Assembly (NCBI GenBank): GCA_037951105.1
Contig: JBAMJV010009070.1
Coordinates: 17,273 to 81,272 of the forward strand
Reading direction: 5' to 3'
Origin: Echinarachnius parma
Taxonomy: Eukaryota > Echinodermata > Echinoidea > Clypeasteroida > Echinarachniidae
Length of the DNA: 64,000 nt
In this document: positions 8,993-56,530 of the stretch, one piece after another
Position numbering within the stretch: the stretch's first letter is position 1
How the letters are laid out: each line of letters begins with the position of its first letter
The notes under the pieces: generated by a model
Told to the model about the DNA's origin: nothing
What the model saw: only the letters and a program-made list of their open reading frames with translations
The model's database searches: none
Made by a program: the position numbers and the translations under genes

Positions 8993-9145
8993 ATGGCGGA
9001 CTATAGGTTGTTGAGGGACGTCATGTGGTCGGACAGGGTGTACCGACTCCGGGAATTGCCCGAGTACCACGGATTCCCGATGATCATCAAAGTGGTCAGC
9101 AGTGGAAAGGAATCGCAACACACGCCAAAATTTACCGCTGGCGAG
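8993..9145 (+). CDS. Gene 1 exon 1 (CABIT start)
   Basis: Starts with ATG at 8993 and encodes 51 aa ending FTAGE before the donor gtaag at 9146, phase 0. The start is chosen because MADYRLLRDVMWSDR aligns with the gene 2 start MTEIDYRRVREVMWTDK. A pyrimidine-rich tract and CAG at 8920-8922 look like a splice acceptor, so a 5' untranslated exon probably lies further upstream; it was not located. Confidence 0.85.
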
Positions 9146-12100
9146 GTAAGTTTTCTTTACCCGTTTCCTTCATTGATTATTTTGTAAACCCACAATGTTT
9201 CGGTAAAATGATATGATCATAAGAGATTAAACAAAGAGGACAATGTGAGGAGTATCACCATTGATCATAAAGGTAGTTAACAATGGAAATGAATCGCAGC
9301 ACATGCACGTGGACAGGGTTTATAGACACCGGGAATTGCCGGAGTACCACGGATTCCCGATGATCATCAAAGTGGTCAGTAGTGGAAAGGAATCGCAACA
9401 CACGCCAAAATTTACCGCTGGCGAGGTGAGTTTCTTTGCCCCCTTCCTTCTCGATTATATAATCATAGAAACCTTTGTTAACATATTTATATAAAATAAA
9501 TTACAACAGAGATGACAAGGTGTTCAGACTCCGGGAATTGCCGAAGAGTACCACGGATTCCCGATATGGAAAGGAATCGCAGTACACGCGTAAATTCAAT
9601 GCGGGAGAGGTGAATTTAATTACCCCGCTTTCTTATTTGATTAATAAACCTAAAAAGGTTTCAAGGTTTCATATAATGTTCAAAATATATTTTTTTCAAA
9701 AAGATCGGAGAGTGTTTATAGAGTTCGGGAATTGCTCGGATTCCAGATGATTATCAAAGTCGTTAGCAGTAGAAAAGAATCGCAGCATTCCGCAGGAGAG
9801 ATAAGTTTCTTTACACTTTTCCTTCTCGATTACTATATACATGTAATCCCAAAATGTTTCGGTAACATATACGACCAAAAATAGATTAATAAGAGAGGTC
9901 AAGGTGTACAGACTCCGGGAATTACTGGAGAGTACCACGGATTCCCGATGGTCAAGGTTGTTAGCAGTGGAAAGGAATCGCAGCACACTCCCAGGAGATG
10001 ACTGCAGGAGATGAACATGTAATCTTGTCTAGTGGTCAGATACATACTGAAATAGATAAATTAAAAGTAATAATAATAATCAAACATGCAATAATCACAA
10101 CATTTTACGAAAAGAAAGTGCGGGTACTGGTTACTTCGGAGCATCATGACGTGGTCGGACAGGGTATACCGACTTCGGGAATTGCAGGACAGACGGAGTA
10201 CCACGAATTCCCGGTGATCACCAAGTCTGTAAGCAGTGACAATCAATCGCTGCAGCACACGCCTAAATTGTCCACCAATGTCAAATCACGACAATTCTGT
10301 CAGGTTTTAAAAAATCATTTCACTTACTTACCAACCACCACCTCCCGCAGCACACGCCTAAATTGTCCACCAATGTCAAAACACCACAATTATGTCAGGT
10401 TTTAAAAAATCATTTCACTTACCAACCACCACCCACACCATCTCCCGCATCTTATCGTTTCAGATGTTGCGTCTCGATGGGGTTGAGAGACAAAGGCGCA
10501 TCATCGCCGTGGACTCGAGGAGCAGGCATTGGAGCTTCCCCGTTCACATCGGAGCCAAGTTCGATATCAAGGATAAGAAAGGTAAGATTTGATTTAGTAT
10601 TTATTTCTAACCAGTTTTCTTCATAGTCACACTTTTCCATTCCCCCAATTCATGATATATTGTATAAATGTATTCTACAAAACATTGAACTCAAACGAAG
10701 GGTAAACATACATTTTGAGAAAATTGAACAAAATTGAAATTTTGCGTACAAAACGTATGGGGAGTTAGTGTAGTCCACAACTGTTCCAGAGTGCGTTGTC
10801 AATTTGAGCCACTCGTAGAAATAAATGGCTCTTTTCAAAGAGCCATAGTTTTCTTATTTCTGGACCAATTGTGCTCAAATCTTCAGGGACTATTCATCCC
10901 ATTGAGTGTCTTATAGTCCATACAACAATTTGTCTGGATTTCATTGTCCTTTAATTGAATTACAAATTATTATACAACCACACGGGAAATGAAGAGGGTA
11001 GTTAACTATTCTGCTAGTTGGGTATAAAGCTTTAACGGAAAAATCTTGACGAGGTAGATAAAAGCGTTTTTTTTTTTTTTTGGGGGGGGGGGGGGGGTTT
11101 GCTTTGTCTTGATATAAGATATGAGTGGTTGCTACAAAAAATCTGATGATGGGATAAAGTCCAAAATGGCGGCCATCTTCGATTTTTAAGTCAATACACG
11201 GTTTAACCCCGCCAAAATCTTATACAAAACATGTTAAAAGTGTTTGTTTTTTCTACGGTTTGTGGTAAGATGTAATATCATGAGATGTATAACTAAAAAT
11301 GATGAAAATCTCAATTCTGGGAAATTGATTACTTTTCAAAATGGGGTCCAATATGGCCACCATTATCTTAAAAGTGCAATTGATCTGTTATTGTACATTC
11401 CACAGTTGTAATGTTTGTGTCTACCCCCACGTTTTGAGGATCAATCAGTTCATTGAAAATGGTGATAGCGTAATTCAGTAATTCGAAGCCCCAAAAAACA
11501 AGATGGTGGCCGATATTTATATACAAGAAGATATATATATCATTTAATGTTTATACTAAATGTATATGTTATTACCTACCCCTTGATTTTAAGTGGCTCG
11601 GGAATCTGTAAAAGGGATCTAGTATTAACTTTGTTGACGTGTGCAAAAAGTGATGAATGGTTGATACATTGTGTATTGTTGTGATCTGATTATGTCCATT
11701 GAATAATGTGTGAAAAATTCGCGTTAGTAAATTGATGTTATTTGGACGAGTGATGACCGAAAATGGCAAATGATATTTATTTACTTATTGCACTGACTCT
11801 GTACATGGATACGTCTATCCAGTGGATAGTTTAATATCTTAACACTTCAATCGTAAATATCTATTTAACGAAAGGGAAATTCGAAAAACCTAAACATGTT
11901 CCATGCTTCTATTGTTAATAGAAATACAACGAGGTATGAGAGAACCGCTAGGAGATCCAAGTCAGTTTTGAGGATTTTGACAATGTTACTAGATCCCTTT
12001 AATGACATTAATAAAGGACATTAATAAATGAGCACAATCCAAAGTTAACGTTGTTAAAAGCAAGTTGTAGATATAATTCAACTTTCTATTTAGACAGGAA

Positions 12101-15100
12101 ATGAGAAGACCGCAAACCGCTCTTTCAAAGTACGCAATGGAATCTTGCTTGTTTAGCTGATTTTCCTGTTTTACAATTTTTTACTCGTTATTGATTTAAT
12201 AACGAGTAAAAAATACCTTATGTATGCGTAATAACAATAGTAGCATGGGACAGGTTTCGTTTTTTCGAATTTCCCTTTCGTCAAAAAGATATTTACGATT
12301 TAAATGTTCTGACTTTTTATTATCCACTGGGTAATCATAACTGTGTACAATGTCAGTGCAATGATTAAGTGAATATCACTTTGCATTTTCGCTCATTACT
12401 CGGCCATCATACATTCATTTAACGTAAAACACATTACTCAGTGGACATATGTCCATTGAGTAATGTGTGAACAATTCGCGTTAGTAAATTGATGTTATTT
12501 GGACGAGTGATGAGCGAAAATGGAAAATGATATTTACCTACTTATTGCATTGACTTTGTACACGGATACGATCGTAAATATCTATTTAACGAAAGGGAAA
12601 TTCGAAAAACCGAAACATGTTCCATGCTTCTATTGTTAATAGGAATACAACGAGGTATGAGAGACCCGCTAGAGATCCAAGTCAGTTTTGAGGATTTTGA
12701 CAATGTTACTAGATCCCTTTAATGAATACAAATGTGACAGAGGAATAGCAAAAGTAAAAACAAATCCATGATGGCGTCCAAGATCATTTCATTGAACGTG
12801 CTGTAAATTTGTTGATATATATCCTACAGTTTTAATGTATGTGTATATCCCCACACTTTAAGGGTCGAGCAATCTATGAAACCTATAGCGTCATTGTTAT
12901 TTAGTTATTCAAAACTTTACAATCCAAAATGGTGTCCAAAATGACCGCCATTTACTTAAAACTTCCCACATATTATTATTTTGATATCTATATCCAATGT
13001 TTCTAAATCCAGATTGCGCTCTAAATCACAATCCCGGGAAAATTGTTCGATGGGTCAATTACGCATATGTTTGTAGGCACTGTGTGCGACGCTTATTTAT
13101 GCGATGATTCGCTCATCAAACAGATTCAGAGCGCAAGCAATTACTGTATACATGATCATTATGCGCTCACGCACGGCGGCGAGGATTGGTGCTTGGCCAC
13201 GAGTCTATATTATAGTTGTAATATTAAAGGGACTTGAGAGTCGTATACAGCCTAGCTTTCGATCCTAGCAGAATCTTCGTCATGGCACAAATGACAGTTA
13301 CTACAGAAAAAAACACAGAATATATACCAACATAAACACATGTATGGAAGGGGGGCTGGAAAGAGGAAAGGAGGCGGAGACACAAAACAATGAAAGCAAC
13401 TGTGAAATGTCCCATTTCCATATTAAAGGGACTTAGTAACATTGTCCAAATCCTCAAAATAATTTTTTTATTCTAGCGGTTCCCTCATACCTTGTTGTAT
13501 TCGTATTAACAATAAAATCATGGGACCGGTTTCGGTTTTTCAAATTTTCCTTTCGTTACAAAGATATGTACGATTAAAGTATTCAGATAAGAAAAACTCA
13601 GGTGGAGTTTTGAAACCGTGTACAAAGTGCATGAGTGCAGTGAGTTAGTGAATATCACTTTGCATTTTCGCTCATTACTTGGCCATGCAATGTCCATTTG
13701 ACTTGAAATGTTCACACAATACCCTGTGGACATATGAGATAACAACAATATACATTGCATCAACCCTTCATCACTTTTTGCACATGTCAACAAAGTTACT
13801 AGATCCCTTTAATGTCCAACGCCCGGTTAAAGTGTATGATGATATCTTTTTTAAATATATGAAAGTGTAACCACATAGAAGTTAAAACATTCCAAGATGA
13901 CGTCTTAGGTAGTTATCACATCAAGTCGAAGTTCGCACAATAGGGAAATTAATAAATGAGAACAATCCAAGGTTAACTTTGTTATAAGCAAGTTGTAAAT
14001 ATAATTCAACTTTCTATTTAGACAGGAAATGAGAATACCGCAAACCGCTCTTTCAACTTTCTATTTAAAATCCAAAGTACGCAATGGAATCTTGCTTGTT
14101 TATCTGGTTTTCCTGTTTGCATTTTGTACTCGCTATTGATTTAATAACGAGTAAAAAATGCTATGTGTATGCGTAAAAACAATAGTAGCATGGGACAGGT
14201 TTCGTTTTTTTCGAATTTCCCTTTCGTTAAAAAGATATTTACGATTGAAATGTTCTGACTTTTTTTAATTATCCACTGGGTAGTCATAACCATGTACAAA
14301 GTCAGTGCAATGATTAAGTGAATATCACTTTGCATTTTCGCTCATAACTCGGCCATATAACATTCATTTAACGTAAAACACATTACTCAGTGGACATATC
14401 AGATTACAACAATACACATCGTATCGACCATTCATCATTTTGTTTTACATGTCAACAAAGTTACTAGTCGATCCCTATAATTGCAAGTCAGAAAATATGC
14501 GCATTTGCACCAATCAGATTTGCGCATTTTATAGTCACATGGTCTGACTTCCAATTTTGTGTAACTTTACAGTAGATTTTATCTCTTTCAGCCACAGTGC
14601 CTAGATCTTTCTGTCTGTGTTTTATGAAAATGACGCGTTACTTACGACGTTTCCACATAATTTGTATACATTCTTGCCACGGTAGGACGGCGATCGTCGA
14701 TGTACATGAGTGAGATGGTTGGAGACAGCAAGCTTCCCAAGAATCTGAAGAAGTTCCGGTTCGCTGAGAAGGATGTCATGCAGCTGAAGATCAACGGTGA
14801 AGATCACAAGACATCGAGCGGCCCGATCATCGAGGGTGACTTCCAGTGCAAAGACGTCATAAGAATTGGCATCTTCAAGGCGAATCGAATTACCGAAGGT
14901 ATGTCTTCATATTGCGTGTTCCATGTAGGTTGTTGTTTATCGGGGTGTGGGTGTGTATTCACACTTATGGTGCCATGTAGTTGAGAATCAATGGAGTGGA
15001 TCACAAGACATCGAGTGGACCTATCATCGAAGGTAAAGACGTAATTTGATTTGGCATCTTCAAGACTAATCGTATTACTGAAGGTAAGCAGAACTGTTGT

Positions 15101-18100
15101 TTGTGTGTAGAAGGTATTTGAACAAGTGTTTATGCCCAGGAAGGATGCCATTTAGCTGAAGATCAACGGTGAAGATCACAAGACATCTTTAACAGAAAGT
15201 TACTTCCAGTGCAAAGATGTCATCCCCGTTGGCATCTTCAATGTCAAACCGAATAACAGAAATGTCTATTTTGCGATGCTTTTTGCAGGAAAGTTCATTT
15301 GCGTATCTCTATCATTTTGTAAAATAATATGCATGATTATAATGTACTCGAAGTAAATAATTTTATTTGTTATCAAGATCGTCTCTTACACACGTTCAAA
15401 TGGTTTCATTTAGGTGGAATGGACACTTACAGTTATTTGTGTTGTCTAATTTATCATATATAATCCATACTTCTCATTCTTAATAATTCATGCTAATTCT
15501 CTCCTTACAGTGGAGGTAAACCCTCATGTCGTGTTCCTCCCCGCCTACATGGACATGGAGGTTACCGTGGCAACGATGATATCTGGCGAGCCCGGTGCAT
15601 TCTGGGAAGAATACATGGACGCCATGACGAGTGACATCAAGACCAAGATCAATCTGGACATGTACAGGGGGAAATCAGGTACGGTTATTATCGTTCGGGT
15701 TGTGTCAGGTTCACATAGGCGTACCCAGGGGGGGGGGGGGGGGGGGGGGGGGGGTTAGGGTTGGCAATGAGGTAACGAGAAAATGTTGAAAATTGTCGGT
15801 CTCGGCTGCAAAATTTTTCTACGGAACCCCCCTCGAAAATTTTCTACGGACACCCCCGCTTACAGGATTCTCAACCAATGGTCTTGGTCTCGGCCTCGAA
15901 ATTTGTTGACCGGACCTGGTCTCGGCCTCTAAAATTTTGAAGGTACTTGTTCTCGGAAATTTTCTACGGACATCCCCCCCCCCCCCCCCCCCCCCCCCCC
16001 GCGTACAGGAATCTCAACCAACCAATGGTCTTGGTCTCGGCCTCGAAAATTTTTGGCTGGTCCTGGTCTCGGCCTCGAAGAAATGTTTTACGGTACTTGG
16101 TCTCAGCTATGAACAATTTTCTACGGTGATTGAGTTTGAGTTATGTTTATGTTTAGAATCATTATAAGGGTTGGTTTATGATTTATAGGGATTTGGTTAG
16201 GGTTAGACATCTCTATTTGTTTATGGATAGCAGGGCATTTATAACCAGAACATGCCATGTTACCATTTTAACAGCAGAAACGTTTCCCTCTGTGGGGAAT
16301 ATAGAAATATGAAAGGCAGAAGAGATACATAATATTTAATGATGTATATAATAACAAAACAAACATATATCAATTCCACACATCAACTAATTATGGCTTT
16401 CCATCATTTTAACTGTACTTGTTGGTGAAACACCTACTTACTTGTATGCTCCGTTTTTCCTTTTTGTTTTCCTTGCCAGAAATCCTGATCTACGAGTTCC
16501 CAAAGAAGAGAAGCCGACCCAAGAGCGTGTCGTGTTTGTACGAGGCCCAGGTCCCGACAATGATCGTCACCATCGGGGGGATCATGAAGAAACGTCCTGT
16601 TAGCAGAGTTCCTCCCGTCAGTACCACGGTATGTTCTATATAGTTGTGTGGGGACATTTTGTAGAATATTTGATTACGGAAAGTCTTTAAATCGTCAGCG
16701 TTAGAAGGTTTCAAGTATCCATAATATTCGTTGGGTCGTCGGTTTAATACAAAGGAGTCGACTACGGTGTGACCCTCACCATCGGGGGAATCATGAAGAA
16801 GCAACCAGTCAGTGCAGTTCCTCCCTTCAGGGCTATGTTACGTTCTAGTTATGGTTTTCCCTTTCATAGATCATTTTACAATTACCGTTAGAAAGTTTAC
16901 GATATTCATGATATTCAGAGGTTCATACGCTTTGCTTTGAGGAGCTGATTATGACCTGGTGACAGTCACCATCGGGGGATCAGGAGGAAGTGTCCTGTTA
17001 GCAGAGTTCTTCCCGTCAGGGCAATGGAGCCCTCTAGTTGTGCTAGTCCCTGTCATATGTTATTTTACCATAACGGTTTGAAAATGTCCAATATACCTGA
17101 TATTCAGAGGTTCATACGCTTAAAACCAAGCAGACTATGATCGTCACCATCAGGGGGTGTTTCACAAAGATTCTAAGTTGAACTTAACTCTAAGTTGTAC
17201 CTAACTATTATCGAAAGCCATTTGTTGCCTAGGAATAAAAACAAAACAAAGGAATATTCAAAAGCAAGAATGCACGTATAAATTGCATACATTTTAAATC
17301 AAAAACATGGAATCACCTTGATAATAGAAAATATTACCATAATTTGAATAAACATTTTATGTCTTAAAAAAAACCTTTTTCATTTTGTTACTAAGAAACT
17401 AACGGCTTTCCATAATATTTAAGTCCAACTTAGAGTAAAGTTCAACTTAAGATCTTTGTGAAACAACCCCAAGGTGATCATGAAGTCCCTCCCGTCAGGT
17501 ATGTTCTAGTTGTGGTAGTACATTTCGTAGGTTATTATACAATTAACCTTGATCAAACCATTACAGTTTCCAATATCCATGATATTCGGAGGTTCTTACG
17601 CTTTACACCCAGGAGATGACTACGGACCTGATGACCGTCACCATCGGGGAGAACATAAACAAGCACCCGGTCAGCAAGATTCGTGCCGTCAGAGCGTATG
17701 TCTCCATAAAAGAACTTCTTTCGTTTGTTGGTGAATGCACCATATATATATACATGAGAAATGTCTTAATTCCCGATGATTTGCTATGGAATTATTCTTA
17801 TTCTATATATCTATTTACTACTCCTTTTCTGCAGGCAACACCTGACCAAGTACAGGACGTCACGGAGACCGAGAGAGCAGAGGAGGAGGAGCAGAATGAA
17901 CCCAAGGAAACTCCCATGGAGACCCTCCGGAACTCTCTGTACATCGACGACGAGGGGTTAACAGATGATGAACTCCGCGTTGCTAAGCACCGCAGGATGC
18001 TGCTGATGATGCTGGAACAAGAAGAGGAACGGGAGACGGATGGCATCCCGCAACCATGGCAACAGAGGGAGGCGGGAGGTGTGGACTCCCGTGTGGAAAC

Positions 18101-19421
18101 AGCAGAACAAGCAGAAGGAGGGGGAGGTGACGAAGATGGGGACTATTACGATGAAGGAGAAGAGGATGATCTCGATGCTGACAGCAGTAGATATTATAAC
18201 GAGTTCATTCGTGACAGTGAATATAGTGAAAAGGTTGAGGATGGAAATGATGAAGGTAGTTATTCTGGCAGTTATACTAACAGCGATGACTTGTTTGGTG
18301 AAGCCGAAACGGCGTCACCAGCAAGAGGAGAAGGAGATGGTCTTGGTGTGGATAATTCTGCAGATTCTGACCTTCCCATCGATGCCGAACAAGCGGCCGC
18401 ATCGACGTCACTTCCAACGTCCTCATCATCATTCTCAATCAGTGATGCCCAAGAACAAGATCCAGAGGTCAATCTCGATGTGCCAAAAGATGAGGGCACG
18501 TTGAACGTTAAAGACGGGTCAGCAGATACAGACAATTCAACCGTCGTGCCAACAGTTGAATCGGCGACAAAAGATGAACTGACGTCTGAATATGTAGACG
18601 CGTCAAAGGCTACAGACGCATCAGCGTTAGACAGAGGGCCACTAATTCTGAACACAGCGAATGTTGATAAAGCACCTGCACTGCTTCAGGAAACATCGGA
18701 GGCTAAAATGATCTCCACACCAAGTCAGAAAACGCAGAAAGTTGATGAAGTGTCTATATCGAGTCAACCTTTGTCGATGGAAGAAATCGCCAAAAAACCG
18801 CGTTCACCTGGAGACGGCTCGCCAGTACCTTCGTTTGCTCCCGAATCCAACGTCACCACCGGCGCCCAAAATTCACCACAGAGGCGCGTGCCACCAAGAA
18901 TCCCACTGCGGGTAGATTCCAGGCTAAGTTTGGGCATTATCAATCCCGTGATGCCGGTCTCTAGATCAGTTAGTGTTGACGTCAGCGACTCAATAAACCA
19001 GTGTCCGGTTCAACCGCGCCAACGCGCTAGCACGGCAACGAACATGTCGAAGCCGCAGCCAAAACCACGAAAGAACGTGTCGATGGCGCCCAGACCCGCT
19101 CCGCGCGCGCGCGCTAATACGTACGGAAGTCGTGGTAAAGCGCACACAACCATGACAACGGACACCCGTCACGCATCAATGCGCTTCGAGCGCATCACGG
19201 ATTTCCCGGAGGACCTGGTCGGCTTGACCATAGACGACATGTGCGCGGCTCTGTGCCTGCTGAACCTGGGAGAGTATGAGGGAAGCATCCAGGAGCAGAA
19301 CATTGACGGAGAGATGGCTAAAGAACTGTCTGAGGACATGATGAAGGCTGACCTTGGCATGAGTGGACTGGCAGCCAAGAAGTGGATGAGATTCATCCAT
19401 CATAACTGGAGGCCGATGTAG
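8993..19421 (+). CDS. Gene 1: GAREM-like CABIT-SAM adaptor, 6 coding exons
   Basis: Coding exons are 8993-9145, 10464-10581, 14686-14898, 15511-15678, 16480-16628 and 17835-19421, all with GT-AG borders and compatible phases (0,1,1,1,0), giving 2388 nt or 795 aa. Residues 1-267 (exons 1-5) are beta-rich with CABIT-like signatures: RELPEYHGFP, then a hydrophobic-basic stretch, then HWSFPVHIGAKFDI, which resembles the first half of the GAREM CABIT module. Residues 268-720 are acidic, Ser/Thr-rich and proline-rich (VPPRIPLR, KPQPKPRK, MAPRPAPRAR), so probably disordered with SH3-type ligands. Residues of about 718-795 are a SAM domain ending NWRPM, like the GAREM C-terminus. Y-x-N motifs at Tyr387 and Tyr414 fit GRB2 SH2 binding. 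By family it should act as a cytoplasmic adaptor in receptor tyrosine kinase/ERK signalling; this is inferred. Exons 1, 3 and 5 have decayed copies in the neighbouring introns. Confidence 0.85.
9303..9425 (+). CDS. Exon-1 copy b, possible alternative first exon
   Basis: Near-identical copy of the 3' two thirds of exon 1; I count about two mismatches over the roughly 96 bases from GGGAATTGCC to the donor. It has an in-frame ATG at 9303, encodes 41 aa ending FTAGE, and keeps a usable donor gtgag at 9426 in phase 0. Just upstream (9261-9302) is another scrap of the exon's 3' half. It could be an alternative first exon or simply a recent duplicate; no transcript evidence is available here. Confidence 0.5.
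9511..9609 (+). pseudogene. Exon-1 copy c, decayed
   Basis: Matches exon 1 from the VYRLRELP region to the donor (here KVFRLRELP then ESQYTRKFNAGE), with an internal deletion that shifts frame after RELP. Donor gtgaa is retained at 9610. Confidence 0.7.
9703..9800 (+). pseudogene. Exon-1 copy d, decayed
   Basis: Shorter copy with the CGGGAATTGC core and the ATGATTATCAAAGTCGTTAG stretch. Internal deletions break the frame and the donor has mutated from gt to at. Confidence 0.65.
9898..10010 (+). pseudogene. Exon-1 copy e, decayed
   Basis: Copy containing KVYRLRELLE, then frameshifted through the CACGGATTCCCGATGG region. The end resembles the FTAGE codons but no clean donor is kept. Confidence 0.65.
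10141..10269 (+). pseudogene. Exon-1 copy f, decayed
   Basis: Copy that retains the CATGACGTGGTCGGACAGGG start, so it extends further 5' than copies c-e. A short insertion after GGAATTGC shifts the frame. It ends in ACACGCCTAAATTG without a donor. Confidence 0.65.
10257..10437 (+). repeat. Two-copy tandem repeat of about 90 bp
   Basis: The stretch CACACGCCTAAATTGTCCAC through TCACTTACCAACCACCACC occurs twice in a row with few differences. The unit begins with the last bases of an exon-1 copy, so it belongs to the same duplication activity. Confidence 0.8.
10464..10581 (+). CDS. Gene 1 exon 2 (CABIT core)
   Basis: 118 nt between the acceptor cag at 10461-10463 and donor gtaag at 10582, phases 0 and 1. 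Encodes MLRLDGVERQRRIIAVDS followed by HWSFPVHIGAKFDI, the best CABIT-like signature in the protein. The same exon length is found in gene 2. Confidence 0.85.
10611..10958 (+). repeat. Partial copy of family R3 (570-bp MITE)
   Basis: Matches 6479-6830, including CAAAGAGCCATAGTTTTCTT and the terminal TTTCATTGTCCTTTAATT. Only the right half is present, in gene 1 intron 2. Confidence 0.8.
11067..11097 (+). repeat. T15-G16 homopolymer junction
   Basis: A run of about 15 T is followed directly by about 16 G. Such runs in this window mark ends of mobile elements and are also where assemblies are least reliable. Confidence 0.85.
11340..11515 (+). repeat. Dispersed repeat related to 12760-12960
   Basis: Shares ordered blocks with 12760-12960: a TCCA-ATGG start, then ACAGTT(G/T)TAATGT, then TATCCCCAC/TACCCCCACG with GGGTC/GGATC downstream. 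No coding potential was seen. Confidence 0.55.
11611..12001 (-). mobile_element. R1 MITE, complete copy, reverse orientation
   Basis: About 390 bp bounded by AAAGGGATCTAGTA and GTTACTAGATCCCTTT, an inverted pair of termini. Inside are the family landmarks: the GTGCAAAAAGTGATGAATGG block and the AAAGGGAAATTCGAAAAAC block. No ORF, so it would depend on a transposase elsewhere. Confidence 0.85.
12012..12437 (+). repeat. Intronic direct duplication, copy 1
   Basis: Matches 13953-14400 in the same order: AATAAATGAG(C/A)ACAATCCAA, GACAGGAAATGAGAA, TTTAATAACGAGTAAAAAAT, then the R1 start. The copies are about 1.94 kb apart and diverged by substitutions and an indel. Confidence 0.8.
12238..12720. 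mobile_element. Two R1 MITE fragments in inverted arrangement
   Basis: 12238-12440 reads forward (CATGGGACAGGTTTCG to CATTACTCAGTGGAC) and 12440-12720 reads in reverse to GTTACTAGATCCCTTT. The pair looks like a head-on fusion or nested insertion of two R1 copies. Confidence 0.7.
12760..12960 (+). repeat. Dispersed repeat related to 11340-11515
   Basis: Second copy of the AT-rich block, with TCCAAAATGGTGTCC and ACCGCCATTTACTTAAAAC at its right end. Confidence 0.55.
13424..13812 (+). mobile_element. R1 MITE, complete copy, forward
   Basis: Bounded by TAAAGGGACTTAGTAAC and GTTACTAGATCCCTTTAA. Very similar to the copy at 53922-54307, including GATAAGAAAAACTC and CACACAATACCCTGTGGACA. Confidence 0.85.
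13953..14400 (+). repeat. Intronic direct duplication, copy 2
   Basis: Second copy of 12012-12437. It contains an extra stretch of about 25 bases after CGCTCTTTCAA in which CTTTCTATTTA is repeated. Confidence 0.8.
14180..14480 (+). mobile_element. R1 MITE, partial, forward
   Basis: Runs from CATGGGACAGGTTTCG to CAACAAAGTTACTAGTCGATCCCT and lacks the left terminus. It overlaps the end of the intronic duplication. Confidence 0.75.
14686..14898 (+). CDS. Gene 1 exon 3 (CABIT middle)
   Basis: 213 nt between GGTAG ending at 14685 and donor gtatg at 14899, phases 1 and 1. Encodes GRRSSMYMSEM, KKFRFAEKDVMQLKI and DVIRIGIFKANRITE. The YMSEM start and the KANRI end are shared with gene 2, and gene 3 has SVYMRDI and FATNRV. 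Confidence 0.85.
14981..15085 (+). pseudogene. Exon-3 copy b, decayed
   Basis: Contains TTGAGAATCAATGGAGTGG, GATCACAAGACATCGAGTGG and GGCATCTTCAAGACTAATCG, matching the 3' half of exon 3. A deletion removes the DFQCKD codons; a donor-like gtaag follows at 15083. Confidence 0.7.
15133..15265 (+). pseudogene. Exon-3 copy c, decayed
   Basis: Contains GAAGGATGCCATTTAGCTGA, CAACGGTGAAGATCACAAGA and CTTCCAGTGCAAAGATGTCA. The CAG of the original CATGCAGCTG has become TTTAGCTG, creating an in-frame stop. Confidence 0.7.
15511..15678 (+). CDS. Gene 1 exon 4 (CABIT third block)
   Basis: 168 nt between acceptor ttacag and donor gtacg at 15679, phases 1 and 1. Encodes VEVNPHVVFLPAYMDMEVTV, EEYMDAMTSDIKTK and ends YRGKSG. 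Gene 3 exon 4 has the same length. Confidence 0.85.
15679..16479 (+). other. Gene 1 intron 4 with G27 and C27 tracts
   Basis: 801-bp intron. It contains a run of about 27 G (15728-15754), a run of about 27 C (15974-16000) and two tandem units of about 160 bp built on GGTCTCGGCCTCGAAAATTT. The remainder, 16140-16479, is AT-rich with nothing recognised. Confidence 0.75.
15815..16130 (+). repeat. Tandem repeat, two units of about 160 bp
   Basis: Each unit has TTTTCTACGGACA, a C-rich stretch, TACAGGA(A/T)TCTCAACCAA, GGTCTTGGTCTCGGCCTCG and a second CTGGTCTCGGCCTC. The C27 tract lies in the second unit at the place of ACACCCCCGC in the first. Confidence 0.75.
16480..16628 (+). CDS. Gene 1 exon 5 (CABIT end)
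   Basis: 149 nt between acceptor ttgccag and donor gtatg at 16629, phases 1 and 0. Encodes EILIYEFPKKRSRPKSV, then TMIVTIGGIMKKRPVSRV and ends PPVSTT. The basic IMKKR segment is shared with gene 2 (IMKRRKG). Confidence 0.85.
16756..16850 (+). pseudogene. Exon-5 copy b, decayed
   Basis: CACCATCGGGGGAATCATGA and CAGTTCCTCCC match exon 5. Frame of the VTIGGIMKK codons is kept, but the donor is replaced (AGGGCTATGTTACG). Confidence 0.75.
16947..17040 (+). pseudogene. Exon-5 copy c, decayed
   Basis: CAGTCACCATCGGGGGATCA then TGTCCTGTTAGCAGAGTTCT, closer to the parent at the 3' end. The ATCATGAAG codons are deleted and no donor remains. Confidence 0.75.
17139..17515 (+). pseudogene. Exon-5 copy d, split by a MITE
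   Basis: The left part GATCGTCACCATCAGGGGGT ends near 17155 and the right part resumes as GTGATCATGAAGTCCCTCC near 17474, ending with a donor-like GTATGTTCTAG. The intervening 320 bp is an inverted-repeat element. Confidence 0.75.
17155..17474. mobile_element. MITE inside exon-5 copy d
   Basis: About 320 bp with terminal inverted repeats of about 30 bp: left GTTTCACAAAGATTCTAAGT, right ACTTAAGATCTTTGTGAAAC. The inside is AT-rich without an ORF. Its position inside a duplicate dates the insertion after that duplication. Confidence 0.85.
17611..17705 (+). pseudogene. Exon-5 copy e, decayed
   Basis: GATGACCGTCACCATCGGGG, ATAAACAAGCACCCGGTCAG and GTGCCGTCAGAGC match exon 5. It is open in frame but has no acceptor or obvious donor; it lies 130 bp before exon 6. 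Confidence 0.7.
17835..19421 (+). CDS. Gene 1 exon 6: disordered tail and SAM domain
   Basis: Acceptor tctgcag at 17834, phase 0, 528 codons to TAG at 19419-19421. It starts ATPDQVQDVTE, not at the upstream in-frame ATGs, which lie in the intron and in an exon-5 copy. Exon residues 51-55 are KHRRM, 120-122 YYN and 147-149 YTN. Acidic and Ser/Thr-rich stretches follow, then proline-rich motifs at about 18890-19110, then the SAM domain (19185-19418) with DFPEDLVGLTIDDMC, MAKELSEDMM and NWRPM. Confidence 0.9.
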   Translation, partial: ATPDQVQDVTETERAEEEEQNEPKETPMETLRNSLYIDDEGLTDDELRVAKHRRMLLMMLEQEEERETDGIPQPWQQREAGGVDSRVETAEQAEGGGGDEDGDYYDEGEEDDLDADSSRYYNEFIRDSEYSEKVEDGNDEGSYSGSYTNSDDLFGEAETASPARGEGDGLGVDNSADSDLPIDAEQAAASTSLPTSSSSFSISDAQEQDPEVNLDVPKDEGTLNVKDGSADTDNSTVVPTVESATKDELTSEYVDASKATDASALDRGPLILNTANVDKAPALLQETSEAKMISTPSQKTQKVDEVSISSQPLSMEEIAKKPRSPGDGSPVPSFAPESNVTTGAQNSPQRRVPPRIPLRVDSRLSLGIINPVMPVSRSVSVDVSDSINQCPVQPRQRASTATNMSKPQPKPRKNVSMAPRPAPRARANTYGSRGKAHTTMTTDTRHASMRFERITDFPEDLVGLTIDDMCAALCLLNLGEYEGSIQEQNIDGEMAKELSEDMMKADLGMSGLAAKKWMRFIHHNWRPM

Positions 19422-20392: not shown

Positions 20393-20594
20393 AACCCGGC
20401 GCAGACAGAGCCGACTCGACCCGATCTGACTGGTTTTCAGTCGCATCGGCTCGGTGTGCGTTGCCTCAAGACTCCGATTATGCCAGTCGGAAGCCAATAG
20501 GGCCCGATTCAAAATGTTGAATCGGCCGCGTCTGAATCGGACCGACTATGGCTTTCAGTCTGGTCGGGTCGTGTCGGCTCTCCTGCGCCGGGCT
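20393..20594. mobile_element. R5 MITE, complete
   Basis: About 200 bp with terminal inverted repeats AAACCCGGCGCAGACAGAGC and its complement, and an inside dominated by GACTCGACCCGAT and CAGTCGG words. Other copies are at 23848, 40476 and 43529. The 3.37-kb duplication starts within it. Confidence 0.8.
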
Positions 20595-22199
20595 TAAAGC
20601 AACCTGACTTTTACTACAGTAGATAGTAGACAATTATTTCAAAGAATTAAGATTATTATGATTCCATGCGGACTGCGTGTAAGTAGCACAAGATGTAAAT
20701 GTTTTCAACGATGAGGGCAGACAATTTCAGACGGACCTTTCCATGTGAGGACTGGCCGTCATCACAACCGTAGACCAATTGAGGACTAGGTCTCAAACTG
20801 CTCAAAATACTAATGAATCTGGTAAATTGTCATGTTGTTGCCATCTTTTTCTTGATTTATTACCGTCGTTTGTCATGTTCGTGGGTCAAATTGTCATATT
20901 CCAACTACATACATGCACTTTATTCGGCTTGAAATTACAAGTATAACAATACAATACAAATGTATTTTTTTCAATCATGCTGCATCAGTCATGTGTATGA
21001 TTCATAGAATCGATAGTAGGTGTATAGAGATTGTCCTAGTAATCTCATTTATACACAACAATTGTTTGTAGACAATACTTGCTGAAACCCGCTGAAGTAG
21101 AATCTAATAACATGTAATAGGGATGAGTCCGAATAGAAACTTATCCACTGCAATAATTGTATATAATAATCTTGAAAGCATTTTTTTTATTTTTATTTTT
21201 TTTATTTTATACTTATACTTATCTATTCAATTAGCCTGTTCCATATAAATACAATGGTATACTATGAATCCACTTTGCAAACATTACATGTTCCCATGTC
21301 GGGCAAGCCTCTTGGAACATCTACGGTTGCTAAGAACACATTTATATATTGAAAATGTTAGAAAATTAGTCTACCTTGGCAATGTTTGCTGTATTTATTC
21401 TTAACTTGCATCCTAATTTACCAAAAAGGCGGATCCCTCAGATTTTTTAACAAATATTTATTCAGACATGTATGACTAGATCTATATCATTGTATATCAT
21501 GGCGCGTTCGTAAATGCATGAACAATGTTTACTCACAACAAATATGTACTGCATGAAAATATTTACTATATTTTGCATAATGTAAAGTATGTCAAAGTCA
21601 AGAGGCTGCACACCTGGGGTGTTGCAACAAATATCTATTTCAAGACATAAATATGAAAGTCTCTCTAAAGTATAATGATGGTTTTGAGAATTGTGTGTAG
21701 AAATAGCTCTTGTTGAAACCCCTTGGCTTTATATTCATAAGAGCGCACTGTCTATTTGTAAAAAATTGAGCTAAATTAGCAAGACCGGGTTTTCTTAGTC
21801 TCCAACTACGGTTATCTACAAAAGCATGTATTCCTAGTTGACATCTAACATAATCTCTAGTTGCACACTTAACCCAGGCATATAAAAATAGACTATGAAG
21901 GGAACCAAGCGAGTGTGGTTTTATGAGTGTGGGCCCAGGCGCCCCAGACAAAGAGACCGCTGGAAAGGGCGGGGAATCATGACTGTTGGATTGAAAGTCA
22001 TAATTAAAGTCGAGTCAAAATATAAATACTCTGAACGACTGAGTTGACCTCAGTTTGACATAATTATAATAAAATGATGAATCCATTCCTGGATATAATT
22101 ATTTGTGATTCTGCTCGTTTGTTTGTTAGTGGGAAACAAAAGGGAGTGGAGTGGAGAAAAATAATAGGATATGATGATGATGCTTTGGATGATGTTGTT

Positions 22200-22201
22200 G
22201 T

Positions 22202-22249
<48 letters not shown>

Positions 22250-22340
22250 CGATGATGATGATGGAGATAATGATGATGATGATGATGATGATCATCATGA
22301 TGATGATCATGATCATGATCATGATCATGATCATGATCCT
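22200..22340 (+). repeat. GAT microsatellite, unit 1
   Basis: Long (GAT)n run with GATCAT variants, ending in an AGG run. It produces artificial poly-Asp and poly-Ile reading frames. Confidence 0.95.
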
Positions 22341-22867
22341 TAGGAGGAGGAGGAGGAGGAGGAGAAAATGATAGAGCTGGTGATGATGATAGTTAGGAGG
22401 AGACAATGATACAATATTTGTATCAATTTAAATATATAGTTTGCTGTTACGAATTAATTGTTCAATATTTGAGAATCCATTTAAGGGAAAACGATTAAAG
22501 GTAATAAAGAAAATAAATCTGACACTTTTATAAAGCATTTATCAAATAATGAAGGGAATGATTTAACTAGGTTGACCAGCAACCCTTCATCCTTCATTAC
22601 TGTTTACAAAAACCTCAAACTCTCCTATTTGACAACCTGTTTACATTATGTTATGTCCTTTGTACTAACGTTTCCTCGAAATAGTATTTCCAATGTCTCA
22701 CCTCCGTTGTGGTATTCCAATGAAATATATTTGTTTTCGTAAATAATATAATTATAAACCGATCATAATCAATGAATCATCCATTTCACACTATTTGTAT
22801 GCATATCTGTAGATTTCCCACGTTCTATCTGAACCTCCTAACAACAATTTGAAATAGAGTTCATGAT

Positions 22868-23055
22868 ATACAGTCAAACCTGTCTTAGTGGCCACCTGTC
22901 TATATCAGCCAACCTGCCTATAGTGGCCACTAAACATGATCCCCTGCAGAGAAAAACAATGGAATGAACCTGTCTATAGAGGTCACCTGTCTACATTGGC
23001 CACTTGTCTTACTTCCCTTCGGAGGTCACTATACACACTGTTTGACTGCACTGTT
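22868..23055. mobile_element. MITE with CAGTCAAAC ends
   Basis: Starts ACAGTCAAACCTGTCTTAGT and ends TGTTTGACTGCA, with internal GTGGCCAC palindromes. Present again at about 26238-26425 in unit 2, and a diverged relative is at 63624-63810. Confidence 0.7.
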
Positions 23056-23334
23056 AAATGAATACAGAGTGAGTCACATCCGTTTACGAAGGATAACTGT
23101 TATTTATAATTTTAGGGAAACTATAACAAATTACCCAATATTCACACCATTCTTTAACTCTCAAAAGCATTGGATATCAAACGTGTTCTATTGACCACAT
23201 CGACACGTTATTTCAAGCATGTTGAACATGCACAGTTTGTCGTGGCCATGATTACGATCGAGTTTATTTTTGTCATCTTGTGAACGCATAGCGCACAGTG
23301 CGTAATACACACTGGTTCAGACAGCATTTTTCAT

Positions 23335-23489
23335 TTCATTTCCATTTTTATTTCACTCGTAAAAATGCAAAAAATACAATTGAAACACAAATAACGACTG
23401 AACACATACTAAAATAATTTATATACATAATGAGAAGTATAAAAGGGGTACATTTTTGAGTGGGTAAGGGAACATGTATGTCAAAGTTA
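23335..23489 (-). repeat. Probable LINE 3' tail, minus strand
   Basis: TTTCATTTCATTTCCATTTT is the complement of a short A-rich tail of a non-LTR element; no coding part is left. A second copy is at 26705-26859. Confidence 0.4.
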
Positions 23490-25568: not shown

Positions 25569-25619
<51 letters not shown>

Positions 25620-36727: not shown

Positions 36728-39345
36728 GTAAGTCAGTGATACATATTAAATAATAGTGAAGGTGGTAACGAAATTCTGGGGTTAAATGTTACGGCGCAAC
36801 GGATCCAGGTATTTGCCGGAATTATACCAATGAACCGGTGTGATGTAAATTGACGGAAAGGGGGTGGGGTCACGGTTCAAATAAAACAAAAATGGCGGGT
36901 GACTTGGCGTAATCTAGAAAAGTATCATTTGCTGACTAAATAGACTCAAATGGTTAATTTTAAGTTTTAAAATGGATAGGGGTATATAAGGGGGTTCGTG
37001 AAGATAAGGTAACTCCAGAAGTTTCTTCAATGAGATCGGAGATATGGACCATTCGATAACAGGATAATGAAGAACCATGATTGTAGTTGGAGGTCGATGT
37101 CCTATCGTGAATTATAATGTTTCATTGTAGAAGGACAATTAAGGAACGTGGATTGATAACTATGAATATTGTCTGATTGTCTGAGGCGGTCCGGATCCCG
37201 CTTGATAGCACGCGATGGCAAAGGGAATCAATGGAGCTTCCCGATTCATCTGGGAATGAAGAGGGATTGTAGAGGTCTTTAGTATAGATGTCGTATAATT
37301 TATTATCACTATTAGTGACGAGAATGGGACGGTGTAAGGTCAACATGGCAAGATGGGGCTTTGCCCCTGAAGGAGACACTAAATGCGAATGCGGAGAGAC
37401 TCAGACGATGGACCACATCCTGCAGTGCGGCGGGACGGCTTGCACGGATAACGACCCGTCCCTCGTTAATGAGACGGCCATCGCAGCCCATCAAGAGATG
37501 GACAAACTTTATCTTGATTTAATTAAGGAGACACGAACGAACGAATATTAATGTGTTAATGCAGAACGACTTTAACACATGTTTGAGGGCTAATAACTGA
37601 TTAATATTTTCTGTTTTATATTATGTCAGGTACTTCGCATCCACGCTGAGGAGGTCCAGACCAGGTTGATAGCACGCGATGACAAAGGGAATCACTGGAG
37701 CTTCCCGATTCATCTAGGAGCTAAGCTAGAGGTCGCCGACAAGAAAGGTATGTCAGGGTTATTTGTAATAGAGTTAGGGTTAGGGACAACAGATATCAAC
37801 TTCGCACACATCGTCTTTCTTACCATCAACCGATGTGTCGAGTTGACTGTTACCTGTACAGTTTTCTACACAAGATCCATTCGACTTTGGAACATGCTCC
37901 CCTTACCATCTTACCTATATAAGTTATGCTACCAAACGCCCAGAGTTTCAGGGATGCAGCCATGCCCAACATCATACAGATGGCGGCGCCTCCCACTCTG
38001 CGGACACTTTAAACACAACCAACAGAAAATGCACCTGCAAAGTAGCCCCAAACACCTGTAAATAGAACATCACATCCACGCACTTCACTGGCACTGCACT
38101 GCCTCTCCAGGACAGCACCGAATGGCGCTTTTTAAAGAGATATTTTCTTCCAAGTATCACGTATGAACATGAAGGAGGACTATGAACTACATGGACTGCA
38201 TTGGCTGTTATAGTGATGGACTGCATCAATGCTAAGGTGGTCTGGACCCGTTTGATAGCACGCAATGGCAAAAGGAATCACTGGAGCTTTCCTATCCACA
38301 TGGGTGCAAAGCTAGAGCCTCATTCGCGCAGAAATGAGATAAAGAAATTCGAAAGTAAACGTACGTTCTCTCTGATATTCCTGCATCTTCTTGAAAGTTC
38401 TTCCTAGTTATGGGATTATCTGTCTCTTGATCTATCTATGAATGAAAAAGAGCAAGGAAAATTGGATTCCAACGGGATTCGAACCCGAGACCTCCGGATT
38501 GCTAGACCGGTGCTCTTACCGACTGAGCTATAGAAAACCCTAGTACGGTGTTCGTCCCTGAAAACCCCTTAATTTACATTGCTCGTGTGGGTCAGAAGCT
38601 ATTGTAAACCTGACAAAGGATAGAAATCAACTTGGGGATATATGCGAGGGATCATCGATATGCGAGGGATCAGCAAAAGCTGCATCACTCCGGTGATCCC
38701 TCGCATATATCCCCAAGTTGATTTCTATCCTTCGGGTTTATTTCTTCTCTCTTTATTTCTTGTAGGCAAAAAAACTACGATGTACATGAGCGAGATGGCA
38801 GCGAGATGGCAACGTTCACGTGGAAGTTTTTCCCCGTTAACCTTCTCTGCATCTTTAAACTTCTTAGTGTTTTATATTTTTCATTCATCATGTTCATCAA
38901 TATTCAGGCAACAAGACTACGATGTTATTATGAGTGAGATGGCAGAGATGCGCAAGTTCCCCAAGAGGTTCTCGTTCGTGCAGGAGGGGGATAAGAAAGG
39001 AAGTTTTCCCCGTTAATTTTCTCTGCATCTTTAATCTTCTAAGTGTTTTATATTTTTCATTCATCATGTTCATCAATATTCAGGCAACAAGACTACGATG
39101 TATATGAGTGAGATGGCAGAGATGCGCAAGTTCCCCAAAAGGTTCTCGTTCGCGCAGAAGGAGCGGAGATGCAGGTGAAGATCAGGCGGGGAGGACCGGG
39201 CAAGCGCGGCGCACATCGTCGCTGGTGAATACAAGCCCTTGGAGATCATCAAGCTACGCATGTACAAGGCCAACAGAATAGAGAATGGTATGCAATTGCT
39301 CTAGAATAATGATGAATACGGTGGTGGTGGTCGTCGTCGTCGTCG

Positions 39346-39386
<41 letters not shown>

Positions 39387-42300
39387 TCAGTTATAATTGG
39401 GTATACAATTTTATTTATTTCACAAGGCGCAGGCTATCGTTAGCGTTAACGATCTTAGGATATAAATTGACTAAAAGTAAGAATCTCTCACCGTAAGAAT
39501 TGGTGGTATTCTTGATCCATGTTTCTCTAGTTTACCAAAATAGTATAATATTGAGATGGATAATCCATATCAGTGAATACGTACATTTAAACTCATGTTT
39601 AAAAGATGCATCAGATGTAAAGGATCAACATACATTTTTAACACAAGCAGTTAGTGAACATGAACAATTGTCATACGTGGCCTTTTTGCAGATGAAATCG
39701 ACGCTCGAGTGACATTCCTGCCCGCCCTACCTCGACCTAGAGTTTACCATAGCATCCAAGATAGCCTGCGAAACAGGATGAATTCTGGGAGGACTACATG
39801 GCCAGCATGTCACAGGACATTATGACCAAGGTCAACTTAAACATGCACAGAGGAAAATCAGGTAATGTAAAAAACCAATGATGCAACAAAATGCTTTAAA
39901 AATGCCTTTAATATTCCTCTTCAAATAACGCCTGTTTAATAAAAAAAAAATGAGTTAAATAGGGGCCTAAATGTTCGGTCCTAGCAGAATCTTCTTCAGA
40001 GGCTAAACGCGACGAATGGTACCCAGGTCGAAAAAACAGTTGAAACCAGTTGGAAATTCAACTGGTTTGTACTGTTTTAACTGGCATCAAACGGTAGCAT
40101 TTAAAAATTCCCGGTTCCCAGTAAACATAAATGGACAGATGCATCAGACCAGTTAAAACCAATAGAAATACCAGTTGAAACCAATTCAAAATACCAGTTG
40201 AAACCAATTACTTTAACTGGTCCTCATGTACTGGTTAATCCCACTACTGGTTTGTTAATGGTTTCAACTGGTTTCTTACTGTTCAGCCTAACTGGGTTCT
40301 TACTGGATTCTTACTGGTTGTCCCAGTAGATTCCATTTGATTTCAGTTGATTCCAGTGTACCAATTTCCATATTGAAACCAATTGGCCAACAACTGGTAT
40401 CAACTGGTACCGATTGGCAACTAATTTTCAACTGTTTTTTCGACCTGGGTACGTAGATCATACATAACTTATGTAAAGCCAAACACGCACTGAGCCGACT
40501 CAATCCGATCCGAATGGGTTTCAGTCGAATCGGGTCGGTGTGCGTTGCCTCACGACTACGATTTTACCAGTCGGGGCCGATTCAGTCGTGTATAATTATA
40601 ATCGGCTTCGACTGATCGGTCCCGACTCTAGCCTGACTGAAAACCAGTCGGATCACGTTGAGTATGCGCCGTGCCCTTTGAGTCTATTACGCCATGTATG
40701 CAGTTATCCATAACGTAGTTACCACAATTAATGTCTGTGGTTTGTTGAGGCACAGAAGGTAGTGGAAAGCCTCACTTCACTTAAGTAAAATCATTGTAAA
40801 AGTTGCTTATCTATTACTTCCTTTTCCCCTAAATTGTAATTATTTGGAGTACTAAAACGTTGGCATTGACATAATGTGCATTATTTTCTTGTTTCAACTG
40901 TTCATATGTTTGAATAGAATTTGACATTTAATATCCCCTCACTTTTATCATTCAAATTTGTTATGTGTGTGGATTAATCTAATTTATAGTTCTTTTTTAC
41001 CCGTTGTGAATTGTGATACTGTTAATAACTAGTTTTGTTTAACAGGCTTAACAAAGTGATCGTTTTATGCAATCAAAATAAATCAAATTAATTTTGTTTG
41101 TATACTCTCTGCAGACATCCAGGTCTACTATTTCATAGAGAAAACCAAGTCGAAGTCGAAACGGTCGCCGAGCATCTACGAGGAGCAGGCGCCCACGGTC
41201 TCGGTGACCATTGGCAGTCGCAGCATCATGAAGAGGCGCAAGGGCAGCAAGGCAAAACGGTCTACGGATGAGAAGTCGTTATCCATCGGGTCTTATCCAT
41301 CGAACGCATCGTTTGGCTTGCTGGTAAGTCGAACAAAAATAAAAAGCCTTCCTCCAACCATTAATAAGGAATATTTCATAATTTGGGACGCTACAATGCC
41401 GAATCAATTGGTTACTTGAAGAGACGATATTGTGGCAGCATTGATGAGAGGTCGTTATCAATCGGGTCTTTTTCATCGAACTCATCGTTTGGTGTCCTGG
41501 TAATTAAAAGCATAACGAAGACAAGACATTATTACGTTCATTATGTGGGAGGCTACAATAAGAGATAAACACAAAATAAATGTTGAATCCATTAGTTACT
41601 AGAAGACGCGAAATAGTAGCAGTAAGGGCTCTAAGGGGAGAATGTCTACTTATGAGACATGAGACTGATGAGAATGCTGGTAAGACATCGAAGCTTAAAG
41701 AAAATAAGCCTTCTCCTAATCTTATTTTGCTACAGGCTGCCATTTATACAAGTATTGTTCTCAACGTACGTTCGCACCTAAAGACATTCAGGTTGACGAA
41801 GAACCCTAGAACAGGTTCCTAGAGATACTATCCGAATTCGCAGGAAAGAATGCTAGCCAAAGGACTCTCCATAAATTTGTATATTAAAACCCCTTAAACA
41901 TAATTTTGTCTGTTATTTCAACGATATATCTACATTTATAAGCTACGTAGCTATCTAGGAATACACATTTCACGACAAATTATACTCACTCAAAATTTAA
42001 AAAAATAAAGAAAGTTAAATTTACATATTCCCATAGGCACGTGTACAAATTTGGGCAAAGAAACCCTTTTTCCTCGAAAATTGATAAAGTGGATATAGCG
42101 CCTTTTGGAAGAAAGTTCTTCAATTAATCTTTTTTTAATAATTTATATTTCAGACTACGTTCGCTCCTGAAGACAACGCGGCTGACGAAGGGCCATCATA
42201 TAAGTCGGTCATTGAGATACTATCCGAGGGAGCAGGAAAAGAAAAGATAGAGATTTTGTTATACCCCATGTAAACCCTATAAACTTGCCTGCCTTGTGAA

Positions 42301-53780: not shown

Positions 53781-53921
53781 TTTGTGCATACTTAATCGAC
53801 CAAGTATAATCAAATGTTACCTAATAATAATATATACTTATTGGATGATTAACAATACGTGGAAAACTGGAGTCAGGCTGAACACGTAGCAGGTTGCAAT
53901 CATATAATAAGACAGTAACGC

Positions 53922-54621: not shown

Positions 54622-56388
54622 GGTGTGAGGCAAGATGGATATCAAATTTTGTGTGCTCTTTTTTTCCAAGTAGAAATAACTGTATCACATGGCGTGCAGT
54701 ACATTGGTACAATTATTTTGTACATGAATATGCGTATACATTATAATTTTCGATTCGAGCAGAAACGATTGGATATATGATTACATGAATATATTATTTT
54801 CTCAGTTGTCAGTTGAAGTACCTATTATGTTTGTTTATTTCATTCAATACCTGATATAAGTGTACAATTATATTATTATCTATATTTTCTAAGTAAATGT
54901 ATATGTACGTATTTTAAATTGCATTTATAGTTTATGGGTCATTGTTAGTGAATGCATAAGGATGTTTTAGTGTCATTATGAGAAGTGTTTTTACAAAGCA
55001 CACATGTTATTTCGTAGCTGATTTAAAACAATCAACAACTAACTTATAATAGACTTGCAAGCTTAATCACGTAAGTTGCATGTATGGGTTTTTAATTTAT
55101 GAGTATTTCCAACCAGATAAACATAAATGGGGGTGTTTTTTTCTAGTAAAAATACAATACTTATACAGTTGTCAATTTCTATATTAAGGGTAACTATACA
55201 AGAGCCCTGGCAACGCATACACTTTAATTCTTACGGTACTTGTTTTCGTTTTTGTTACGTACAATAATATACAATGAACACTATAACTATAAAACTGACA
55301 TATTTACAGAGCATTTTATAAACTGCAGTTTCACCAGGGCATAAAAAACGATAAAGAGCTTGCCCGCCAAATCGGATACAATTAATTAACTAGTAATTTG
55401 CATTACCAAATACCAATTATACGGTATAGACCTATATAAGTATATTAATTATCATCAATTAAAAAGGATTAATAATGGGCACCCTGCTTATTTATTTTAT
55501 CTGCTAATTTATATCCATTAAGTATTACTGTACGTAGCATGTATGTGTGGGTGGTGTAAGCGAGTTAGTATGGTATAAGAATAATATGTTAGTGTCCATA
55601 GTGTGTGATTATTTGCTTTTGTTTATTTGTTTATTTGTTTATTTGTCTATTAAGCGCTATATATATAAATGTTGTATATTATGATTATTATAATCATTAT
55701 TTGCTCGTGTTGGCGTGTACAATAACATGTTTAGCAAGAAATCATATGCGAATCGTTGACCACCAAATGAAGGACAATAGAATAACAACATTTTTGTTTT
55801 CTTTTATTTTGTTCATCTGCAGGTTGAATCTTGACGTACATGTACAGGGTACATAAAGAAGCCCTATATATTTACAAATTAAAGCAGTCGACAGCACAAT
55901 ACAGAGCAGCGTTCTACACTTCTGGACTACATTACCGTTCTACGCAAGAGTCTTCAAACTATTGAAGAACACCTATCGATTATAATTATAGTTTTGAACT
56001 GATGTTACCAATGGTTACAACAAAACACTCACATTAATCATTTAGAAACAAGGAACTGTCACATTCAAGTTGGCGCCAAGTTGGTTTCGCTGAAGTGCTT
56101 TGAGTACCTGGACGACATTGCCATTCGAAGCAAGACCCATCGAAATGAAATTAAAGACATGGTTTCAACTAGATCGCTGAAGTAATTTGAATGACTGGGC
56201 GACATTGCCATTCGCAACAAGGTCCATGCACCTGCATGCATGTATAGTTTAGTACATCCATCGATATGAAATTACAGACACTGCGGTAATTAAGTAAAGG
56301 GAAGCACGACAACGATTCGATTTTTATTTTAAAAAACGGATTGGAACTACATGTATTCGCGAGTTTGACTATTTATTTTGTATCGATC
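54622..56388. other. Gene 3 upstream region
   Basis: AT-rich; no exon, promoter element or repeat assigned. Confidence 0.45.
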
Positions 56389-56430
56389 ATGCTGGATAAA
56401 CTGAGCATTTATGAGAAGTTCAAATTCTAA
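56389..56430 (+). pseudogene. Truncated copy of gene 3 exon 1
   Basis: ATG CTG GAT AAA ... encodes MLDKLSIYEKFKF then TAA, against MMDKLSIYEKFKF in gene 3. It lies 250 bp before the real start and could act as an upstream ORF if included in the transcript. Confidence 0.8.
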
Positions 56431-56530
56431 CGTTTCTAGTACTCAAGAGAAGAACGCCAACAGTCGATTGGTTGAAAACACGTTTCTAGTACTCAAGAGA
56501 AGAACGCCAACAGTCGATTGGTTGAAAACA
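56431..56530 (+). repeat. Tandem repeat, two units of 50 bp
   Basis: CGTTTCTAGTACTCAAGAGA to GATTGGTTGAAAACA appears twice without a visible difference, directly after the truncated exon copy. Confidence 0.95.

Follow-up and report, generated by a model that had tools for sequence, protein, structure and literature searches.

Tandem exon duplication is a described class of gene change that includes unannotated copies (PMC9013439, in the available part of that source). In the Drosophila gene Gr39a tandem exon copies occur, some of them degraded to pseudo-exons and some recently duplicated and/or converted, according to the portion of the report at hand (PMC2204066). For the variable-first-exon clusters Pcdh and Ugt1 the accessible text describes conversion in Pcdh and in dog Ugt1, and a two-exon ancestral unit in zebrafish Ugt1 (PMC1885805). 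Dscam carries tandem duplicated exons of 130-160 bp with introns of about 100-200 bp between them, as given in the part of the source available (PMC3236188).

Here we present an array of six partial copies of a first coding exon, named E1 below, in the first intron of a gene of Echinarachnius parma. As in the tandem exon duplications of PMC9013439, in its available part, the exon copies lie within their own gene and some of them outside annotated exons; the copies of E1 differ in being 5'-truncated, mostly damaged and arranged as six short units in an array. Gr39a resembles the E1 array in having one exon in several tandem copies of which some are degraded; its copies in the portion at hand are large exons with donors, several of them intact, whereas in the E1 array frame and a good donor are present only in the copy C1 (PMC2204066). 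Tandem first-exon copies upstream of shared exons recall Pcdh and Ugt1, as far as the accessible text describes them (PMC1885805), and tandem exon-sized copies with short spacers recall Dscam; the Dscam exons are alternatively spliced with no conversion among them, in the available part of the source, whereas in the E1 array no acceptor was copied along and a conversion patch is likely (PMC3236188). Pseudo-exons, exon conversion, and tandem as well as two-exon block duplication are already described in the available parts of these sources (PMC9013439, PMC2204066, PMC3236188, PMC1885805), and the E1 case adds a small array of mostly decayed, 5'-truncated copies. General work on tandem exons was present among the literature matches listed, and no title among them concerns this locus. 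We consider it likely that the array consists of dead partial tandem copies of E1 which have decayed, with a probable conversion patch in C1.

The host gene and its paralogues

The window, i.e. the whole 64-kb stretch of E. parma DNA that was analysed, contains three paralogous genes in one common orientation. Their models are based on splice signals and paralogue similarity only.

8993-19421, + strand, gene 1: splice-signal model with six coding exons and 796 codons including the stop
8993..9145, + strand, E1: first coding exon of the gene 1 model, encoding MADYRLL...TAGE, with the phase-0 donor GAG/GTAAGT; source of the copies
10464..10581, + strand, exon 2 of gene 1: next exon downstream of the array in the model
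36566-43504, gene 2: exons 1, 2, 5 and 6 open
56639-61318, gene 3: five exons, reads through

Every junction of the gene 1 model has a GT donor and an AG acceptor, and the incoming phases of exons 2-6 are 0, 1, 1, 1 and 0. E1 is "first" in the sense of the first coding exon in the model; a possible acceptor was noted by eye at 8922. The gene 1 protein matches that of gene 3 with 31% over 336 aa (E 4e-43), starting at residue 28, is 44% identical over 89 aa to the product of gene 2 exons 1-2 (E 1e-25), and matches the product of gene 2 exon 6 with 57% over 98 aa. Exons 3 (39084-39287) and 4 (39692-39861) of gene 2 are closed in every single frame, and a long open frame makes up the last exon of this gene; the disruption reflects either a decaying gene or sequence errors.

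A CABIT-SAM (GAREM/THEMIS-like) family was considered for the host gene. A CABIT identity is not supported by the Pfam result for the exon 1-2 peptide, a match with E 0.093 and 12.6 bits against a cut-off of 24, placed third after two unrelated weak matches. The spliced first 267 aa of gene 1 gave no Pfam match to CABIT, and a sequence search of solved structures with these residues gave 0 matches up to E 10. SAM_1 matches near the C-terminus of gene 1 (E 0.0008, 20.1 bits) and gene 2 (E 0.0003, 21.6 bits) fall slightly short of the curated Pfam cut-off of 23 bits, and Pfam found no SAM domain in the last exon of gene 3.

Further features of the window include a 3.37-kb tandem duplication (20481-23850 and 23848-27220, span 20481-27220) with 99.88% identity, which is either very recent or a haplotype/assembly artefact. 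A tRNA-Ala (AGC) gene or tRNA-like element is located on the minus strand at 38463-38539 in intron 2 of gene 2 (ARAGORN; Rfam tRNA 50.7 bits). A dispersed element with many copies, approximately 68-93% alike and in both orientations, occurs at 11611-14480, 48887-49268, 53403-54311 and within 474-2295.

Copies of the first coding exon in intron 1

Intron 1 of gene 1 contains six partial direct copies of E1, all on the + strand and at most 1.2 kb downstream of E1; a further short repeat lies at the far end of the array.

9250..9306, + strand, C0.5: remnant of the middle of E1 (about E1 9062-9125); 9262-9303 scores 44, shuffle maximum 25, z 10
9311..9458, + strand, C1: E1 9031-9145 and the intron start; SW score 229, z 87
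9514..9662, + strand, C2: SW score 105, z 36
9705..9889, + strand, C3: SW score 135, z 58
9897..9991, + strand, C4: SW score 111, z 35.5
10144..10269, + strand, C5: copy of E1 9021-9132; SW score 111, z 38 over 10151-10269
10252..10436, + strand, direct repeat (period 95 bp): duplication of the last part of C5 with the DNA after it; far end of the array

Significance was assessed with 200 dinucleotide shuffles per copy. The scores of C1-C5 lie 35-87 SD above the shuffles, the best of which reached 30 or less, and the margin over the best shuffle is smallest for C0.5. The initial annotation had named five copies in this intron, and direct repeats were found at all five (z 35.5-87 against shuffles); the alignments run through ordinary mixed sequence and not through low-complexity runs. 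As a complete set the five were too few, since C0.5 at 9250-9306 and the 95-bp repeat at 10252-10436 had been missed.

The left ends of C1-C5 fall at E1 9021-9032, i.e. 28-39 nt inside the coding exon (all at 9025-9032 in the shuffle-tested local alignments, the value 9021 being that of C5 in a second alignment), and the alignments of C1-C3 extend into the intron. The ATG of E1 (8993) lies outside the alignments of all six copies, with the query extended back to 8923. The array has the layout of a partial tandem exon duplication: direct copies of exon and flanking intron follow one another head to tail within one gene. The earlier description of exon 1 and its intron start as repeatedly duplicated holds for the repetition and for the intron start, and fails for the whole first exon, the ATG being unaligned. 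Among E1 and the copies, the core CCGGGAATTGCC, which the copies had been said to repeat, is present in exact form in E1, C1 and C2 only.

Frame and splice sites differ among the copies: C1 is intact, C2 is partly shifted, C3 has lost its donor, and the frames of C4 and C5 are broken. In C1 the frame is open, the core is almost identical to E1 and the donor is kept (GAG/GTGAGT; 8/9 consensus matches for C1 and E1 each), and an in-frame ATG of its own stands immediately upstream at 9303. The middle of C2 is out of frame through an insertion of 2 nt and a deletion of roughly 20 nt; the indels sum to -18, so that the frame is regained without a stop, and the donor is weaker (GAG/GTGAAT). The deletions of C3 total multiples of three and leave the frame open, and its donor GT is changed to AT. 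The frame of C4 is broken by a 2-nt insertion at the same site as in C2 together with a 3-nt deletion, and there is no GT at the donor position. C5 is broken by an 8-nt insertion and its alignment stops short of the donor. C1, C2 and C3 contain no stop when read in the frame of E1.

Exon divergence from E1 over ungapped columns is 20.4% for C0.5 and 5.3%, 14.9%, 19.4%, 18.0% and 16.8% for C1 to C5; intron divergence is 17.5% for C1 (57 columns), 30.4% for C2 (79 columns) and 15.9% for C3 (82 columns). The decreasing preservation first reported is not borne out, as the values from C1 to C5 form no gradient, and copies that grow steadily older with distance from E1 are rejected because divergence is without order by distance. 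C5, the farthest copy, is 94% identical to E1 over 9025-9059, the others 71-74%, and the others align just from 9029-9032.

C1 and C3 have 9040T and 9043T in common, as well as intron changes at 9151, 9172 and 9174, and C2 and C4 have 9036A, 9061A, 9136T and the 2-nt insertion in common. The regions 9311-9565 and 9707-9949 align as one block with 71% identity. The shared states and the block alignment suggest, from counts on few sites, that C1 and C2 were perhaps copied as a two-unit block to give C3 and C4. The trees, with 45-75% support, contain neither the C1-C3 nor the C2-C4 pair, i.e. no block copy: the exon and full-length trees place C1 with E1 and not with C3, and let C2 join C0.5 before C4; in the intron tree, built from E1, C1, C2 and C3, C2 pairs with C3. 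Several shared states conflict with one another, which makes exchange among the copies likely.

The states exclusive to E1 and C1 are 9097C, 9118A and 9142C. These two sequences differ in 2 of 91 columns of the core and in 11 of 64 columns of the flanks next to it (P 0.002; the tract ends were chosen post hoc, after the data had been seen, and the more distant block 9186-9210, in which 11 of 25 columns differ, was omitted from the flanks). A run test for the patch gave a modest P of 0.018 after 2 of 30 sites matching neither parent had been dropped, a value that is weak or inflated because many of the sites are changes private to C3. An E1-like core of C1 between C3-like changes on both sides leads us to prefer conversion from E1 into C1, probably over about 9056-9146 in E1 coordinates as judged from counts on few sites. 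C1 may instead simply be the youngest copy, with parallel changes, a reading we prefer less than conversion.

Among the changes private to C2-C5, 12 of 36 are synonymous (neutral expectation 0.248, P 0.16). The private changes of C0.5 (4/6 synonymous) bring the count to 16/42, with 20 of the 42 at third positions (P 0.038), slightly above neutral; these counts omit the one private change of E1 and the two of C1. States common to at least two sequences are synonymous in 13 of 16 cases (Fisher P 0.002 against C2-C5, 0.007 with C0.5). Shared states that are mostly synonymous and private changes that are near-neutral suggest that the copies budded from a constrained exon and were then released to decay. 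Of the 6 codon changes between E1 and C1, 5 are synonymous (P 0.04 even with C1 dead and E1 conserved); this count and the private synonymous excess allow for some constraint, past or present, on certain copies. The bias between E1 and C1 would be accounted for by conversion, and also by selection on C1.

Local copies of other exons and background duplication

The initial annotation had stated that other exons of the locus show the same behaviour, which agrees with local matches for 8 of the 17 exons in the three paralogous genes (exons 1, 3 and 5 of gene 1, exons 2, 3, 5 and 6 of gene 2, and exon 1 of gene 3), all of them partial copies.

14971..15275, + strand, gene 1 exon 3: two partial copies containing in-frame stops
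16770..17692, + strand, gene 1 exon 5 (3' part): four partial copies, at about 16770, 16960, 17133 and 17631
37181..37255, + strand, gene 2 exon 2: one partial copy, upstream of the exon
38223-38317, gene 2 exon 2: a further partial copy
38764..38987, + strand, gene 2 exon 3 (5' part): two partial copies, acceptor present, no donor
41443..41492, + strand, gene 2 exon 5 (3' end): one partial copy
41767-41865 and 42154-42242, + strand, gene 2 exon 6 (start): two partial copies
56380..56432, + strand, gene 3 exon 1 (start): one partial copy, upstream of the exon

The ends of the copies vary between exons, reaching the donor side, the acceptor side or neither, and some copies lie upstream of their exon; this variation points to random breakpoints and not to a splicing design. 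At 17631-17835 the last copy of gene 1 exon 5 shares one open frame that continues into exon 6, possibly by chance.

Local direct copies, counted per 150-nt window, occur in 8 of 39 exonic and 42 of 318 non-exonic windows (P 0.22), so that an exon-specific duplication as a special process is not established. Low-complexity windows and those overlapping exons or exon copies had been dropped from the control; among the non-exonic windows inside the three genes 12 of 61 have a local copy. Counting whole exons (8/17 against 42/318) gives P 0.0012 in a comparison that is unfair in favour of long exons. Short exons have local copies in 7 of 14 cases, against 23 of 248 non-exonic windows without dispersed repeats (P 0.00025), and the long last exons in 1 of 25 windows, with the split into short and long made post hoc and the numbers small. 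An earlier, looser control (E 1e-3, both strands, 3 kb) matched 90 of 250 random 150-mers and included inverted matches, short matches and the exon copies themselves.

In a simulation with the exon held constant, pairs of an exon and a dead copy stayed detectable about twice as long as neutral pairs: half were detected near 0.34 per lineage for exon and dead copy against 0.18 for neutral pairs, and at 0.20 detection was 60/60 against 19/60. The excess of local copies at short exons is by this bias partly a detection effect; it exceeds the approximately two-fold bias, and the rest is unexplained. Repeated duplication of this kind had been called uncommon, a rarity that is unsupported, tandem exon duplication being a described class (PMC9013439, in the available part) and the same 42 non-exonic windows carrying local duplications.

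Origin of the array

A segment of about 200 bp, reaching from inside E1 into intron 1, would have been duplicated head to tail more than once, one round perhaps being the two-unit block copy. The near-common left ends of C1-C5 inside E1 fit tandem units with a shared left breakpoint. The copies would then have decayed as dead exon copies: they have no upstream exon end, lie within the intron and would be removed with it, and could therefore decay without much effect. At a later time E1 would have overwritten the core of C1 by gene conversion, which would explain the fresh look of this copy.

The copies might be taken for present or former mutually exclusive alternative exons in an array of the Dscam type, in line with their tandem layout, their similar unit lengths of about 200 bp, the third-position bias among shared differences, and the stop-free reading of C1, C2 and C3. 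We regard this as highly improbable: none of the copies contains the 5' part of the exon, so that no E1-derived acceptor was copied along, the donor GT of C3 is lost, the alignments of C4 and C5 contain no donor, and these two copies are frame-broken. For sites derived from E1, an acceptor, a donor and a phase are not found together in each copy. A role of some copies as short regulatory elements or splicing decoys in the intron, for which they would be retained, is very unlikely, too. Exon-derived GT donors persist in C1 and C2, and the short exons of the cluster exceed the background in local copies, which would favour such a role, but the copies of other exons end differently, which suggests random breakpoints. 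An assembly artefact, with repeats from mis-assembled haplotypes, is the least probable reading; the 99.88% identical 3.37-kb repeat elsewhere in the window could be one, but C1-C5 differ from E1 by 5-19% in the exon and by many indels. The divergence of C2-C5 exceeds what is expected from haplotypes or sequencing error.

Variable first exons in Pcdh and Ugt1 carry their own starts. In the E1 array, by contrast, the start codon and 5' end of E1 are missing from the copies, and none of them reproduces E1 from its ATG to its donor; C1 has its separate ATG at 9303. C1 could be a working alternative first exon, read from a promoter in intron 1 and starting at this ATG with MHV followed by exon 1 sequence, while C2-C5 would be dead remains. 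The frame is open from 9303 and joins exon 2 in phase 0, the donor equals that of E1 in consensus matches, and the changes from E1 are mostly synonymous; the base context of the ATG is weak as judged by eye, and the near-identity to E1 is limited to the patch, which points to conversion. On balance we hold this to be unlikely. A broader version, in which repeated conversion from E1 keeps C1 fit as a living alternative first exon, the other copies record older states of E1, and the whole cluster is prone to new exon variants through random tandem copies, appears still less likely. We retain decayed, presumably functionless copies with a probable patch from E1 in C1 as the preferred reading.

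The E1 array is a compact example of exons seeding decayed copies beside themselves, in which a working exon and a copy at a distance of 280 bp have probably exchanged sequence. The array calls for caution in gene finding against annotating such copies as exons. If C1 were transcribed, it would represent a route from a truncated copy to a new alternative first exon.
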